Virus record (IMG/VR): IMGVR_UViG_3300046543_000037
Span: 1-28,858 of that record
Length of the DNA: 28,858 nucleotides
Strand: one strand, 5' to 3'
DNA from: a virus
The position numbers and the translations under genes were made by a program. The notes below the pieces were generated by a model. The model did not search any database, was not told where the DNA came from, and was given only the letters and a program-made list of their open reading frames with translations. How positions within the stretch are numbered: the stretch's first letter is position 1; the number at the start of each line of letters is the position of its first letter. Positions 17,710 through 26,318 of this stretch are shown here, piece by piece.

Positions 17710-20700
17710 CTATGACACGATGATGGCCACCCTAGCCCTGACCGCCGCTACCGGGGTTCCGGTAGCCGGGATCGTCTGAGGCGTCACAATTGAGGCGAGT
17801 ATACTAGGTTCTGGCGCGTTTCCAATAACGGTCAGATTTCCCCGATATTTGGGGTCTTTTGTGATGATATCGACGTAAGCCCGGACAGGTGGGCTGAAGG
17901 CGTAGAGCACGGCAGACATAACGTCCCGGCGCTCATAGGCCGACATGGTGGCCAGATAGCTGAAGTTGATGGTGGCCGGGTTCCAAGCCTGATACTGGCC
18001 CTCCCAGACCTTGGGTTTGTTCCACCTCGGATTGGACAGGTTGCCGTACCAGCCATAGGACGGGATGATTGGAGGCGTGGAAGTGAATATGAACGGCTGG
18101 AAGAACGGGTTACGGCGCTTGGGCGGCGTCGGCTCCCGCCATGGGGCATACCATGCAAAAGAGGGGGTTATCGGGAATGGCGGCTGGACCTGAGTTGACG
18201 GAGATGCTGTTCGTACCCTGCGGGTCGGGTCAGCCAGCGGGCTGAACCAATCCATCCGGACAACGACCGCAATGAACGGATATCTGACACCAAGGCCGGG
18301 GCTTCTTGGCCCTCTCGGTATTTGGTCGGGATAATAGCTGGCTACATAGTTGACTGGGGCGGGTATTGGGAACGGCCCAAAGCTGAAATACGGCTCCAGC
18401 GCCGTCCTTATGCCAATGCGTCGGGTCGGGTCGGTATAGCTGGCAAACCAACTGAATGGCGCGACCGGAAGCGGAGCAAAGCTAAAGGAGGGTTGCAGCG
18501 CAACTCTAGGCCCTTTTGGCAATGTCGGTTCAGACAAACGACTAAACCAACTCATCCGCGCTGAGCTTGCTACGAATTGATATCTAATGCGGCTGGCAGC
18601 GCCAATATCTGGCTTAAGGCGCGTAGGGTCTGAAAGATTTTCGTACCAGCCGAAAGTGACGACTACCGGCTCTACAAACAGCGACCAAGACTGCTGTTCA
18701 TATCTGGTAGCTGTGGCCGTCCTGCGTATTAAATCAGGCCAAGGCGTCAACCAAGAATAAGTGACATTATCCGGGAATAGTGCCCAAGATGGCTGCTCAT
18801 AGCGCGTAGCCGTAGCGATACGCCTGACCGGCTCAGCAAACGACTTAAACCACTTATCTACAGTGCTGACTTCGCCGGGGAGGGACCAAGAGGGTTGCTC
18901 ATACCGAGTAGGTGGCACCCTTCGGATAAGATCGAGCCACGGCGTAATCCAGCCATACGTCACATTGTCCGGGAATAATGACCAAGAAGGCTGTTCGTGG
19001 CGAGTGGCTGTAGCTACACGTCTGGATGGATCAGACAGATTTCCAAACCATCCAAACGAAACAATCGGGTCGGTATCGATTATGATTTGTTCATAGCGGG
19101 TAGGCGTAGCGATACGACGAACCGGATCACGGAACTGAGCAAACCATTTGTCTGCGGTTATTATTTCGCCGGATGGAGCAACAAAGAACTGATAGGACTG
19201 TCCAGCAACAGATGACTTGGGTCTTGATGGATCGGAAAGATTGCCGAACCAACCAAAAGAGACAACAGGGTCGGTGTCTATCGATAGCTGCTCTGATCGA
19301 GTGGCTGTAGCAACGCGCCTGACTGGATCATTGAACTGCTTGTACCATTTGTCGGCAGTAGTGACTTCACCAGATGGTGCGACAAAGAACTGGAAGGTCT
19401 GGTTGGCCGCAGCAAGCGTCTTTGGACGCACCGGTTCATTGAGCGGCTCATACCAACCGATATGAGGGACGACAGCAATGAAGGGATAACGAACCTTGCC
19501 GGGAGCGCCGATATCAGGCTTTACCCGGACTGGTTCAGATAATGGTCTGAGCCAACTATCAGGGAATATAGGTGTAGGCGGCGGTACCACTGGACCGATA
19601 AATCCAGAAGCAATCAGTGCAACCGTGATGCCTTTTCTTCTGACTGGATCAGAATACGGCTGATGCCAGCGGCTTTCTGTTACCTGCTCCTTCTGGGTAA
19701 GACCGAACGGTTCGGCAAAGAAGTCTTTCTGTCTCTCTGCGCGTTGACCGGGTTTGATACGGACTGGCTCGGAAAGAGCTTCGTACCAAGGGATGAATGG
19801 AGCCAGAGCGATAAATGGATATCGGACCTTAAGACCAACAATGTTCTTTGGTGGAAGAATACGATCAAGTTGCTGGAAGCCAAAGAATGTTGCGGGAGGA
19901 AAGTCCGTGATGATAATCAGGCCATCGCCGCCAATTCCTTTGGCGCTAGTGCCAACGGTGCCACGGATTGAGCCGACGCCGCCGCCACCACCACCAAAAC
20001 TTCCTCCACTGCCACCTTTATTGGCCGCGACTACGTTACCTGAGTTTGATCCAGAGGCACCACCACCACCACCAAGCCCGTGAGTACCATCAAAGTCTGT
20101 GCCGCTGCCGCCATTGCCGCCTGTGGTGGCCACTGCTGTAGATACAGTATTACTGCCGCCACCACCCGAATTACCCGTGCCATTGCCGCCGGGATTACCG
20201 GCGCTACCACCTGTACCAGAACTACCAGTACCGCCAGCTTGGCCCGGTGCATTACCGGTAGTGCCATTATTAGCGCCGCCGCCGCCACCACCGAATGTAG
20301 AAGTTGCTGTAAAGCCGTTACCACCCGCTCCATTGGGGCCACCGGCACCACCGCCGCCGCCACCACCGCCAACGGCACCGGATTGGGCGTTCCCACCATT
20401 ACCACCAGCGGAGCCAATCGGATTGGTGTAGGTTATGGCAGGGGTGCCGAACTGACCAAGGGTGGATGCCCCACCCGTAGCACCGCTAAAGCTAGTCGTA
20501 TCGGCACCATTATGAACAGCATAGCTGTTGGTAATGGTGGTGCCTTCCCAGAACGTGGTGGGATCACTGCCGGTCCCGGGGCCGCCGATAGCAAATGGTA
20601 TCGTCGTTGTGCCGGGAGTAATTGTGCCTGACGAATAGAGAAGTTTTATATACGCGCCGCCGCCACCACCGCCGACGCCCCTACTACTGGTGCCCTGCAC

Positions 20701-20820
20701 TGCTGGGATGCCAGTATTGCCCCCGTTACCAACCATCTCGACGGTATGGCCAGCAACAGTGAAATTAGCCGGGACAGCCCACGGTGAGGAGGTTGCCTTG
20801 AGAAGGAAGACTTGCGTCAT
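17710..20820 (-). CDS. Large putative fibre: Gly-rich N-terminal region plus Trp/Pro/Arg repeats (1036 aa)
   Basis: Three parts can be seen. Residues 1-45 are a strand-rich start (VFLLKATSSPWAVPANFTVA). Residues about 45-300 are a glycine-rich domain with runs of 6 to 8 Gly, of the type found in phage tail fibres, ending with an IITDFPP strand. Residues 345-935 hold about 18 degenerate repeats of the form W-[FY]-x2-[LF]-[SN]-[DE]-P-x-R-x-[KV]. They are separated by 20-45 residues of hydrophobic strand such as VRYPFIAVVP or YQFFVAPSGE. The last 100 residues (YERRDVMSAVLYAF and after) are a separate domain. There is no enzyme motif or signal peptide. It may be a fibre, head fibre or spike. The start overlaps the upstream stop (ATGA). 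Confidence 0.72.
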   Translation of the reverse strand: MTQVFLLKATSSPWAVPANFTVAGHTVEMVGNGGNTGIPAVQGTSSRGVGGGGGGAYIKLLYSSGTITPGTTTIPFAIGGPGTGSDPTTFWEGTTITNSYAVHNGADTTSFSGATGGASTLGQFGTPAITYTNPIGSAGGNGGNAQSGAVGGGGGGGGAGGPNGAGGNGFTATSTFGGGGGGANNGTTGNAPGQAGGTGSSGTGGSAGNPGGNGTGNSGGGGSNTVSTAVATTGGNGGSGTDFDGTHGLGGGGGASGSNSGNVVAANKGGSGGSFGGGGGGVGSIRGTVGTSAKGIGGDGLIIITDFPPATFFGFQQLDRILPPKNIVGLKVRYPFIALAPFIPWYEALSEPVRIKPGQRAERQKDFFAEPFGLTQKEQVTESRWHQPYSDPVRRKGITVALIASGFIGPVVPPPTPIFPDSWLRPLSEPVRVKPDIGAPGKVRYPFIAVVPHIGWYEPLNEPVRPKTLAAANQTFQFFVAPSGEVTTADKWYKQFNDPVRRVATATRSEQLSIDTDPVVSFGWFGNLSDPSRPKSSVAGQSYQFFVAPSGEIITADKWFAQFRDPVRRIATPTRYEQIIIDTDPIVSFGWFGNLSDPSRRVATATRHEQPSWSLFPDNVTYGWITPWLDLIRRVPPTRYEQPSWSLPGEVSTVDKWFKSFAEPVRRIATATRYEQPSWALFPDNVTYSWLTPWPDLIRRTATATRYEQQSWSLFVEPVVVTFGWYENLSDPTRLKPDIGAASRIRYQFVASSARMSWFSRLSEPTLPKGPRVALQPSFSFAPLPVAPFSWFASYTDPTRRIGIRTALEPYFSFGPFPIPAPVNYVASYYPDQIPRGPRSPGLGVRYPFIAVVVRMDWFSPLADPTRRVRTASPSTQVQPPFPITPSFAWYAPWREPTPPKRRNPFFQPFIFTSTPPIIPSYGWYGNLSNPRWNKPKVWEGQYQAWNPATINFSYLATMSAYERRDVMSAVLYAFSPPVRAYVDIITKDPKYRGNLTVIGNAPEPSILASIVTPQTIPATGTPVAAVRARVAIIVS
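18016..19788. repeat. Region encoding about 18 degenerate W--LSDP-R repeats
   Basis: Examples in order of translation are WYEALSEPVRIK, WLRPLSEPVRVK, WYEPLNEPVRPK, WFGNLSDPSRPK, WFAQFRDPVRRI, WFKSFAEPVRRI, WYENLSDPTRLK, WFSPLADPTRRV and WYGNLSNPRWNK. Repeats are irregularly spaced. One unit (YVASYYPDQIPR) has lost the Trp. Two larger modules, 19008-19199 and 19202-19400, are nearly identical in protein but differ at many third codon positions. Confidence 0.9.
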
Positions 20821-21745: not shown

Positions 21746-22000
21746 TCACATTTGGATGCGGCGACGGTACTCTTTTTCCGACCGCTCCAGCTTCTTCTCA
21801 AACGGGTCGCAGGAGCCTTTATCGACGCATTCAGGACAGATCATCTTCATGCAAAGCCTGCACATCCCACCAAGTTCGGTGGGATCGCACTTAGGCTTGA
21901 CCATAATGACCCGGTTGCAGTGGAAGCAGGTAAAGGAGTCGGCTTCCTGCCGGATGCCGCCCGGGTCGAAGGAAAAGGCGTAGCCGCCCGGGTTCCTCAT
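21746..22000 (-). CDS. Eight-Cys zinc-binding protein (84 aa)
   Basis: Cysteines at residues 25, 28, 38, 47, 50, 55, 58 and 64 form FTCFHC, GMCRLC and MICPEC pairs plus two singles. This fits two zinc sites in a treble-clef or double-ribbon arrangement. The C-terminus is a charged helix (DPFEKKLERSEKEYRRR). ATG at 22000 (MRNPGGYAFSFDPG) is chosen because it lies just after the stop of the 162-aa gene. A longer frame from 22114 would lie mostly inside that gene. An AGGAG lies 15 bases before the ATG, rather far. I recall similar zinc proteins in phage structural cassettes; the function is unknown. Confidence 0.72.
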   Translation of the reverse strand: MRNPGGYAFSFDPGGIRQEADSFTCFHCNRVIMVKPKCDPTELGGMCRLCMKMICPECVDKGSCDPFEKKLERSEKEYRRRIQM

Positions 22001-22007
22001 GCTTCTC

Positions 22008-22496
22008 TTATTGCTCCTGAAACAGGATCGTTCCAGTTGCCGTGCCGGTGTAGGCGGCTGAGCGACAACGAAGCTGGAAGCCAGTGGACGAAGTGGCGGG
22101 AGCCACCAGTTCACTGCCCGGAGCGGCTACCCATCGATAGGATGCACGTTGGTTGACACCAATGTAGAAGACGTTGGAACCGGTGGTGATGGTGCCGAAG
22201 GTCGAACTGTTGACGGTCGTCACCAACAGCGAGGCGGCGTCGGCGGAGTCGAGCGCGGTGGGGGTAAGGACGGTGGTGGTGGATGCAGCCGTGACGCGGC
22301 TGATATCCCACTCCACGAAGTTATCGGCAGGCGTTCCGTTGGTGCCGATCAGCACGTCATAAATCTTGGAGCGCTTGATGTTCGGCGCGGTACCGGAGCT
22401 TGTGATGCCGATCAGGGCACCGGTATAGGCCGCTGCGGTAGGCTGCTGGGTACCGCCGCCCGAGGTGGAACCGTTGGTGATTGCAAAGTTTGCCAT
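22008..22496 (-). CDS. Conserved-type phage structural protein (162 aa)
   Basis: The protein begins MANFAITNGSTSGGGTQQPT. Its core reads SKIYDVLIGTNGTPADNFVEW, then NQRASYRWVAAPGSELVAPA, and it ends in LFQEQ. The whole is beta-rich. I recall this pattern (a YD-GT-GTPADN strand, then an NQRA-RWVAAPG segment) from conserved phage head or neck proteins of unknown exact role. The ribosome site is weak, only a GGGG run about nine bases before the ATG, and the stop of the preceding NUMOD gene lies 3 bp upstream. Confidence 0.72.
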   Translation of the reverse strand: MANFAITNGSTSGGGTQQPTAAAYTGALIGITSSGTAPNIKRSKIYDVLIGTNGTPADNFVEWDISRVTAASTTTVLTPTALDSADAASLLVTTVNSSTFGTITTGSNVFYIGVNQRASYRWVAAPGSELVAPATSSTGFQLRCRSAAYTGTATGTILFQEQ

Positions 22497-22499
22497 GGT

Positions 22500-22841
22500 C
22501 TAAAAACCCCTGTTTTCCCGCTTCTGACGCGATTTAGCCACAATATCCGAACCTCCGGAATTATCAACTGACCAGACCAGATAGCTGAATCTTAGTCCGT
22601 TAATGTGCCCGGGATTGGTCTTGCGGCGGAGGGCTGAGCGAAGTTGGTCGCGGGTCAGATTGTTGGCCTTGGCGGCGTGGGAGACGCTTTCGTAAACGAT
22701 ACCTTTGCAGATGACCGGCTTGCCGCGTCTGGGACTGGCTTTGCGTTGACGCTTCTTCTTGGAGTGTTCCCGCTTGGCCCAGTAGACCGCGCGGGAAACA
22801 CTCATTTTTACCCGTGTCTCATTGCTATGTTTGAACGCCAC
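22500..22841 (-). CDS. NUMOD3/NUMOD1-type DNA-binding protein without nuclease domain (113 aa)
   Basis: The N-terminus contains KHSNETRVKMSVSRAVYWAK, closely like the NUMOD3 pattern (kHSeETk-KMS). The middle, GKPVICKGIVYESVSHAAKA, then NNLTRDQLRSALRRKTNPG, resembles NUMOD1/IENR1 with its helix-turn-helix, in which S-x-x-x-AA is the hallmark. These modules normally bind DNA in homing endonucleases next to a GIY-YIG or HNH catalytic domain. I see no GIY-YIG or HNH/His-Cys motif here; the basic stretch (SKKKRQRKASPRRGK) joins the two modules. It may be a degraded homing endonuclease or a repressor-like binder. It overlaps the preceding gene by 17 bp, which is unusual in this window. Confidence 0.68.
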   Translation of the reverse strand: MAFKHSNETRVKMSVSRAVYWAKREHSKKKRQRKASPRRGKPVICKGIVYESVSHAAKANNLTRDQLRSALRRKTNPGHINGLRFSYLVWSVDNSGGSDIVAKSRQKRENRGF

Positions 22842-23709
22842 CGAAGATGGACCTCATGTAGTCCATGTCCTCCAAGGCACCCTTCAGGAAGGGGACAGCG
22901 CCATTAAGCTGGGCCAGTTGCTGTTCGGCTTGTTGAATTCTTCCCTTAAGCTCCTGCTCCCGGACGTACAGCTTTCTGCCAAACGGCGTGGAGTCGGCAT
23001 ACCCGTATAGCGGCGGCGGTTGCGCCAGATCACTCTCATACGGGACATTGACGACAATCCCCCTCTTTGCGGCTTCCTGCATGAAATAGTGGCCGCCAGA
23101 GCGTTGCTGGATGTATTCGTCCTTGGACGCCATATCGATGCCAAACAGGGCTATTTCCTTGGCTCCAGCCTTGATGGCCATCGCCAGCATGTATGCAAAA
23201 CTGGAGGTGAAGAAGTATCTGCCAAACTCATTGAGAAGGTCTTGGATCGGCAACGGCGTGGCATTCGGGACCAGTCTTTGATCCTGCATGTAGATCGGGA
23301 AGGTCTGTTTCTTCAGCCACTCCACGTATGGCCTGCCGTAGCTCTCGCATTCCGGCCAGAGCAGGTTGCTGTGGATTTCAAACCAGACATCAACACGGGG
23401 TAATTGGTCCATATTACCGGGGGAACAGGCCCAAATTTGCCAATCCGGGTCATTAAATGGGGCCAACAGGCGAGATGACGGCGCGGTGCCGATAAGTGCA
23501 ATCTTCAGCGGTTTTGGTGCGGCTTCTGGCGACGGTTGCACGGTTGCGTGTAATATAGAGGGGGTGTTAGTCGATGCTTGCATCCCTGAGATTGGTGTAA
23601 AGTTGATTGGTTCATAAGCAGAAGACTTACCATTGGTTTTCTTCTTGAGGCCCTTGGCCTTGAGAATTTCGGTCCCGGTGGGTGTCAGCTTGGCGGTTTC
23701 CACTCTCAT
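22825..23709 (-). CDS. Rossmann-fold, DUF115/sialyltransferase-like protein (294 aa)
   Basis: After a disordered, basic N-terminus (1-65) comes LKIALIGTAPSSRLLAPF (68-85), a strand plus glycine loop. DWQIWACSPGN and RVDVWFEIHSNLLWPE follow. Further conserved-looking blocks are FFTSSFAYMLAMAIKAGAKE, then ALFGIDMASKDEYIQQR and GHYFMQEAAKRGIVVNVPYE. This order resembles the Rossmann-like phage proteins related to DUF115 and Cst-type glycosyltransferases. The C-terminus (about 245-290) is a coiled coil followed by SIFGGVQT. A nucleotide-sugar or virion role is inferred; no catalytic residue is assigned. The start overlaps the upstream stop by ATGA. Confidence 0.65.
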   Translation of the reverse strand: MRVETAKLTPTGTEILKAKGLKKKTNGKSSAYEPINFTPISGMQASTNTPSILHATVQPSPEAAPKPLKIALIGTAPSSRLLAPFNDPDWQIWACSPGNMDQLPRVDVWFEIHSNLLWPECESYGRPYVEWLKKQTFPIYMQDQRLVPNATPLPIQDLLNEFGRYFFTSSFAYMLAMAIKAGAKEIALFGIDMASKDEYIQQRSGGHYFMQEAAKRGIVVNVPYESDLAQPPPLYGYADSTPFGRKLYVREQELKGRIQQAEQQLAQLNGAVPFLKGALEDMDYMRSIFGGVQT

Positions 23710-25403: not shown

Positions 25404-26318
25404 TTAAGAGAGCGGGAACGTCCCGTAGGTCGAGCGCCAGTCGTAGTAGCCGAAGCTGTAACGCTGGTATCCCTTGACCAACAGGTTGTCGGTGGTGAAT
25501 TCAACCTGCATGTCCATCTCGAATGGAATGCGGTTCATGTAGATCAGGCCGTCAACGTTGGTCATCATGAACCAAGCAAACGCACTGGTCAGGTAGTCGT
25601 TGATGACGTAGCTCTCCTTGAGAGAATCGTTCATGCCAAGGATGGCGTTCACGTCATTGGTGGCTGTACCGGGGCGAAGCTCGCTGCGGAACAGACGGAT
25701 CGCTACCGGCTCAAGCTGGGTCGGGATCACGATCTTCTTGCCACGGGCGTAAATCTTCAGCCCGGCATTGTCCTTCCACGTCGAGCGGATGGCAATCGCC
25801 GCGTTGAGCATGGAGGTTTCGTTGAGGTCCACGTCCACGGAGGGCCGGTTGGCAATCGTGGTGCCATCGATGGGATGGGCCGGGTCGTAAAGCGCCTTGC
25901 CGTCACCACCCACGTTGGCGTTGAACACGTTGCCGGTGTTCAGCACGTTGGCGGCGTAGATTTCTTCCGTCTGCTGGAACGAAGCCATAAGGCCATCGTT
26001 GGAAGGCCCAAACTCGGCCTTGTACAGATTGTCATCGATTGCCTTTCTGGTAATCGCATAACCAAGGCCGATTTCGTTGTGCTCTTGGTTATAGACAAAC
26101 CGCTCACCAGCCGAATTGTCGAAGGCGGTGACACCACCCTCCTGCTTAAGCTGGGCAAGACCGAGGTAGCGCATGGAAGCCCGTCGCTCCAGCGCCATCT
26201 TGGAGTCGGTGGTCTTGAAGATTTTCGGCCACTGACGTTCGATCTGGTCGTATTTGCCAGAAATGCCCCAAAGGCCCGGGAGCAACAGGTCACGAATTTG
26301 AGCGAGTGCGACGGGCAT
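25404..26318 (-). CDS. Major capsid protein (304 aa)
   Basis: The protein forms the head shell. It starts MPVALAQIRDLLLPGLWGIS. The middle has FGPSNDGLMASFQQTEEIYA and ALYDPAHPIDGTTIANRP. The C-terminal half has KKIVIPTQLEPVAIRLFRSE and a strand (YMNRIPFEMDMQVEFTTDNL) typical of HK97-fold P-domain/A-domain sequences, ending YDWRSTYGTFPLS. I base the call on the pattern of Mu gpT-like and related capsids, on length and on place between a capsid-associated protein and small structural genes. An AAGGAG ribosome site inside TAAGGAG (26326-26332, sharing the upstream stop) precedes the ATG. The exact capsid family is not verified. Confidence 0.85.
   Translation of the reverse strand: MPVALAQIRDLLLPGLWGISGKYDQIERQWPKIFKTTDSKMALERRASMRYLGLAQLKQEGGVTAFDNSAGERFVYNQEHNEIGLGYAITRKAIDDNLYKAEFGPSNDGLMASFQQTEEIYAANVLNTGNVFNANVGGDGKALYDPAHPIDGTTIANRPSVDVDLNETSMLNAAIAIRSTWKDNAGLKIYARGKKIVIPTQLEPVAIRLFRSELRPGTATNDVNAILGMNDSLKESYVINDYLTSAFAWFMMTNVDGLIYMNRIPFEMDMQVEFTTDNLLVKGYQRYSFGYYDWRSTYGTFPLS

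Follow-up and report, generated by a model that had tools for sequence, protein, structure and literature searches.

The gene on the minus strand at positions 22500–22841 of the window, by which we mean the whole 28,858-nucleotide stretch of viral DNA analysed here, probably descends from a homing endonuclease, lacks the nuclease and has been kept by selection as a DNA-binding protein acting near its insertion site. The protein shows homology to homing endonucleases and has no recognisable nuclease domain. The gene occupies one junction, which is empty in most of the relatives seen; residues 1–91 are under selection, and the tail of the gene aligns with the spacers of two empty sites. In the usual view, homing endonucleases degenerate once fixed. 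If our reading is true, one could trace here how a selfish element became a resident DNA-binding protein, selected in three phages and with a downstream promoter apparently captured on the way. The case is testable because empty sites are available for comparison.

Reading frame and domain content

The frame of 113 codons is a real gene, and its translation start is uncertain, being either the GTG at 22841 or an in-frame ATG at codon 13. A chance ORF at 22500–22841 was ruled out by selection and homology, and the frame chosen on the minus strand is the one that displays both homology and constraint. The preliminary description of this DNA saw here a NUMOD-type DNA-binding gene without a nuclease domain, containing NUMOD3-like and NUMOD1-like modules. 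By name these modules are not recovered: neither of the two Pfam models, NUMOD3 (PF07460) and NUMOD1 (PF07453), finds a match at E ≤ 10, be it in the window or in the 11 related records searched with it. The same part of the endonucleases is nevertheless detected by other profiles, clearly by phrog_314 and weakly by PF20987, and the proposed ancestry is borne out, although the module names are not formally confirmed.

In PHROGs, hmmscan matches residues 4–75 to positions 286–377 of the 574 in phrog_314 (homing endonuclease; E 1.9e-7), a stretch that covers only the DNA-binding part of homing endonucleases. The match recurs in all three carriers of the gene (the window and two viral contigs, L002 and L004) and in none of the 12 other records searched. 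Judged by sequence, the window protein is homologous to the DNA-binding regions of homing endonucleases, beyond chance. Weaker PHROGs matches are led by phrog_28368 (E 0.0015), a family of 65 positions and unknown function. Among Pfam domains the nearest is I-TevI_DNA-bd (PF20987), matched over residues 36–65 at 18.4 bits (E 0.002) against a cut-off of 27 bits; the other two carriers reach 16.1 and 19.9 bits, so that the apparent likeness to this domain is weak and below the cut-off of the model in all three. Pfam DUF7552 gives a weaker match (E 0.16), and at E ≤ 1 the protein matches nothing in NCBIfam or in a profile search of solved structures.

The endonuclease-derived part comprises residues 1–91 (22569–22841, minus strand), as delimited by phrog_314, the sub-threshold PF20987 match, alignment to GIY-YIG proteins and dN/dS. 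It would consist of a NUMOD3-like start (about residues 4–16), a basic linker, and an I-TevI-like beta-hairpin and helix-turn-helix (about residues 36–75). Its secondary structure comes solely from a low-confidence model, the AlphaFold model of the protein being poor (mean pLDDT 47, pTM 0.33), and the NUMOD3-like N-terminus is visible only through alignment to GIY-YIG proteins that match NUMOD3.

The reported absence of a GIY-YIG or HNH catalytic motif is upheld by profile searches. None of 15 records, the 28.9-kb window record included, has a GIY-YIG match at E ≤ 0.1, and HNH_3 has none at this threshold in the window record or in the two other carrier records. HNH models other than HNH_3 were covered through Pfam scans of single proteins, and the scan of the window protein gave no nuclease match. 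A divergent nuclease motif in the gene was sought with Pfam, PHROGs and NCBIfam profiles and was not found.

Relatives with and without a nuclease

A tblastn search of phage records gave weak matches in 30 records; among the matches listed, the best 20 of the 30, none reached 80% query coverage. Five matched proteins were looked at, those of phages Psa21 (gp37), SPbetaL3, MA01, RHph_Y60 (EVB53_085) and FLC8 (gp128). A GIY-YIG domain stands at the N-terminus of the first three, with DNA-binding modules behind it. The window protein aligns with the C-terminal half of two of them, gp37 of the Pseudomonas phage Psa21 (PSA21_37; 35% identity) and WIT27195.1 of the Bacillus phage SPbetaL3 (34%), and differs from both in lacking the N-terminal GIY-YIG. 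NUMOD3 scores over its cut-off in the SPbetaL3 protein and just under it in the Psa21 protein.

The other two proteins are of the same nuclease-less kind as the window protein. EVB53_085 of the Rhizobium phage RHph_Y60 (229 aa) and gp128 of the Burkholderia phage FLC8 (170 aa) have matches to NUMOD- or I-TevI-type DNA-binding domains and no Pfam nuclease domain at E ≤ 1; gp128 also matches, below the cut-off, the group I intron endonuclease model of NCBIfam over its C-terminal part. Both are longer than the window protein and have other neighbours. Nuclease-less proteins of this kind therefore occur in other phages, and that of the window is not unique in kind. Among the titles and openings of abstracts listed in literature searches, none describes the retention by a phage of a NUMOD protein that lacks the nuclease; full texts may differ. 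As a separate observation, EVB53_085 (L062:1357–2046) is annotated as a putative HNH endonuclease, but in Pfam its matches are of NUMOD-like and helix-turn-helix type and, at E ≤ 1, include no HNH domain.

The insertion site

The gene lies between two genes on the same strand. To its left is the upstream neighbour (22825–23709, 294 aa), which is conserved in relatives and for which neither Pfam nor PHROGs gives a family over cut-off; to its right is the downstream gene (22008–22496, 162 aa, beginning MANFAITNGS). A search with the neighbour led to 33 distinct loci, of which 23 (L002 and L004–L025, near-duplicates counted) have at least 57% identity; L003 shows the contig of L004 a second time. 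Gene order was compared with relatives that lack the gene: in 17 of the 23 loci, near-duplicates included, the downstream gene stands directly behind the neighbour and the window gene is absent. Two, L002 and L004, carry the window gene at the same place. At L013 an HNH_3 gene follows the neighbour straight away and is itself followed by a different gene, at L010 another gene and then an HNH_3 gene stand behind the neighbour, and L016 and L017 lack the downstream gene. The remaining 10 loci (31–44% identity) have different genes behind the neighbour, as read from the printed frames.

Searches of viral contigs with the window gene itself returned the same two carriers and one further, distant match (37% identity) in a contig of 305,260 bases; no intact close relative was found among these contigs. 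No relative of the window gene was confirmed in a scan of genome contigs, and none was seen at E ≤ 1 in a scan of plasmids. The carriers number three; two are short fragments, with lengths of 4.3 and 12.7 kb, and the third is the 28.9-kb window record.

The HNH_3 gene of L013 (L013:6713–7228) lies exactly at the junction used by the window gene, and that of L010 (L010:7593–8102) one gene further on. Homing endonucleases may have landed more than once at the junction between neighbour and downstream gene. The presence of an HNH_3 gene at this junction also bears on the idea that the window protein occupies the homing site and so shields the phage from the intact, related endonuclease of a competitor. 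A DNA-recognition half kept without its cutting half, and located at the expected site, would suit such a role. Insertion alone, however, normally destroys the homing site, and the viral contigs hold no intact close relative against which a shield would act, only the contig with the match at 37% identity; we regard shielding as improbable.

The overlap of 17 bp between the gene and its upstream neighbour, noted in the preliminary description, is borne out by the ORF coordinates and is confined, among the three carriers, to the window. In L002 the gene starts right behind the stop of the neighbour and in L004 it starts 10 bases behind the stop, as read from the sequences and their alignment. 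At this junction the window is shorter in the alignment by 29 bases than L002 and by 39 than L004, and with these bases missing the frame of the window gene opens into the neighbour. Most simply, the overlap would be the product of a local deletion in the lineage of the window.

Selection on the gene

Over the whole gene dN/dS is 0.19 for the window and L002, 0.22 for the window and L004, and 0.14 for L002 and L004. For residues 1–91 the values fall, in the same order, to 0.13, 0.17 and 0.10, with bootstrap intervals of 0.06–0.26, 0.07–0.33 and 0.04–0.21 (497, 498 and 500 usable of 500 replicates). Fisher tests on synonymous against non-synonymous differences, using rounded counts, gave p 8e-10 for the window and L002 and p 3e-6 for L002 and L004. 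The flanking genes are more constrained in the same pairs, with dN/dS of 0.04–0.11 for the neighbour and 0.06–0.10 for the downstream gene. Purifying selection acts on residues 1–91 in the three carriers and speaks against a relic in decay. The preliminary description had offered a relic of a homing endonuclease inserted in the cassette as one explanation. Descent and insertion agree with the phrog_314 match, the GIY-YIG relatives, the empty sites and the HNH_3 gene of L013, whereas the notion of a decaying gene is not supported, each of the three carrier pairs showing purifying selection.

The gene has also diverged in step with its surroundings. Its dS is 0.83–0.86 in comparisons with the window and 0.25 between L002 and L004; that of the flanks is 0.70–1.06 and 0.25–0.42, of the same order, as expected if gene and flanks have been inherited together. 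These similar rates give no indication of recent movement, and they weigh against a homing system split in two, in which the DNA-binding protein would guide a nuclease encoded elsewhere in the same or a co-infecting phage to the empty site. The relatives are indeed rich in HNH_3, which exceeds its cut-off 13 times in five of 15 records, with two of these matches in one frame. The carriers may all be fragments, and as two of them are short and the window extends over 28.9 kb, a partner nuclease could lie elsewhere, out of view. All three carrier records, however, are free of HNH_3 and GIY-YIG matches, and a split system is given a low probability here.

The 3' end and the promoter-like element

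The tail of the gene, residues 92–113 and the stop codon (22500–22568, minus strand), aligns with the spacers, promoter-like in sequence, of the empty sites L005 (62 bases) and L006 (61 bases), and in all six comparisons of these spacers with the 3' ends of the three carriers none of 2000 dinucleotide shuffles aligned as well. The spacers of L007 and L025 show no alignment with the carriers beyond chance (157–181 and 343–433 of 2000 shuffles as good, respectively); those of L005, L006 and L007 are alike mutually (0 of 2000 shuffles as good in all three pairs). For L002 and L004 the alignment begins with TTGTTT on the spacer side and TTGATA on the carrier side, and extends through TATTAT, 16–17 bases on; for the window it begins further in.

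A consensus scan found a promoter-like pair, TTGATA-16-TATTGT (22540–22567, minus strand), inside the 3' end of the gene and pointing at the next gene, its presumed target. The pair scores 9 of 12 and is one of two sites in 2.5 kb, where 1.1 were expected. L004 has TTGATA-16-TATTAT at the same place with a score of 10 of 12, among four sites found and 1.5 expected, chance alone yielding 1.1–1.7 such sites per 2.5 kb. The scan covered the window, L004 and L005; in L002 the same pair letters are read from the alignment, and the spacer pair of L005, with only three of six matches in its first hexamer, is not among the sites reported. It looks, from these motifs, as if the last codons of the gene run through the start signal, a putative promoter, of the next gene. 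The 20-base motif around the second hexamer occurs as a single copy in the window, by which a repeated phage promoter or operator was ruled out; with this one copy beside the promoter, the window shows no separate operator. The 14-base core of the motif was found in 17 of 79 loci, which represent five distinct records (the window, L002, L004, L005 and L006) with one copy each, and the pattern of the L005 and L006 spacers occurs exactly in those two viral contigs only.

The spacers of L005 and L006 could alternatively be tails left behind by deletion of the gene, rather than sites that precede its insertion. Insertion is preferred because more distant relatives also lack the gene.

In the tail dN/dS is 0.59 and 0.67 against the window and undefined between L002 and L004, with 16 codons compared, and its amino acids appear less constrained than residues 1–91, a weaker conclusion given the 16 codons. 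Matches to the protein fade over the same stretch: that of phrog_314 stops at residue 75 of the window protein, and tblastn matches H1–H15 end by residue 91, with two hits to tRNA genes, H16 and H17 (E 5 and 8), reaching residue 96. In a six-frame search, the phrog_314 match extends to window-equivalent residues of about 95 in L002 and 98 in L004, so that the border at codon 92 is approximate.

This contrast between the two parts tells against a plain-relic account of the gene, namely a dead homing-endonuclease fragment kept solely for the promoter of the downstream gene in its 3' end. The missing nuclease half and the embedded promoter-like element speak for such an account, and a review of T4 (PMC2988022) has embedded promoters favouring the retention of endonuclease genes. 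Constraint, however, is found in residues 1–91 (0.10–0.17) and less in the promoter-bearing tail. In a neutral simulation, 179, 67 and 25 of 2000 copies kept an open frame at distances of 0.25, 0.43 and 0.86; the 25 copies at 0.86 are to be set against a frame that is open in three of three carriers. A dead fragment is already disfavoured and is rather unlikely, if a little less so than the shielding and split-homing readings.

Possible function

In the reading that we prefer, descent from a homing endonuclease followed by retention as a DNA-binding protein, the ancestor would have been a free-standing homing endonuclease whose C-terminus bound DNA through a region of I-TevI type, like that of the GIY-YIG proteins of phages. 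It would have entered the spacer that separates two conserved phage genes, immediately upstream of the putative promoter of the downstream gene. The nuclease domain would have been lost before the split of the three known carriers, or was perhaps never there, and the remaining DNA-binding protein would have been retained by selection. The protein is predicted to bind DNA at or near the insertion spacer, where the DNA-binding part of a homing endonuclease would bind, and its binding may adjust how its own operon or the downstream gene is transcribed, in the way that I-TevI acts on its own promoter. An embedded promoter alone would also render a clean deletion of the gene costly.

Two precedents from phage T4 are described in passages of the same review. 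The coding regions of free-standing endonucleases (seg and mob) can embed promoters of downstream genes, which favours retention, and binding of I-TevI represses its own late promoter (PMC2988022). The window gene fits both in outline because it has a promoter-like element at its end and a selected DNA-binding half. Like the seg and mob genes (e.g. segG), it sits between conserved phage genes and appears to embed a downstream promoter; unlike them, as they are given in the table of the review, where they are GIY-YIG or HNH endonucleases, it has no recognisable nuclease domain (PMC2988022). I-TevI, a GIY-YIG enzyme with a DNA-binding tail that is also an autorepressor, has the same kind of DNA-binding region, to judge from the weak PF20987 matches, and its autorepression is, in the account of the review (PMC2988022), a precedent for a DNA-binding part that acts without cutting. 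I-TevI joins both functions in one protein, whereas the window protein has no GIY-YIG match, and an intron location was not seen.

Recruitment of a DNA binder for regulation, which the preliminary description had put forward next to packaging, is a possible function by analogy and the one we prefer; no observation made here suggests a part in packaging. A more specific proposal is that the DNA-binding half has been domesticated as a local transcription regulator that recognises the invaded, promoter-bearing spacer and controls the downstream gene of its own genome and possibly also that of rivals in which the site is empty. This version is tentative and on balance doubtful.

Other genes in the window

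The minus-strand frame at 21746–22114 encodes a small cysteine-rich protein with CxxC pairs (MRNPGGYAFSFDPGG...), which has no family over cut-off and of which look-alikes stand directly behind the downstream gene in several relatives; its listed GTG start is probably too far upstream. The frame at 17710–20820 (minus strand) encodes 1036 aa in which, by eye, a glycine-rich N-terminal region is followed by many degenerate W...LSDPxR/W...EPVR repeats. The gene at 25404–26318 (minus strand) is likely to encode the major head protein, with a phrog_371 match at E 2.1e-11 and a match to Mu-like gpT over the cut-off.
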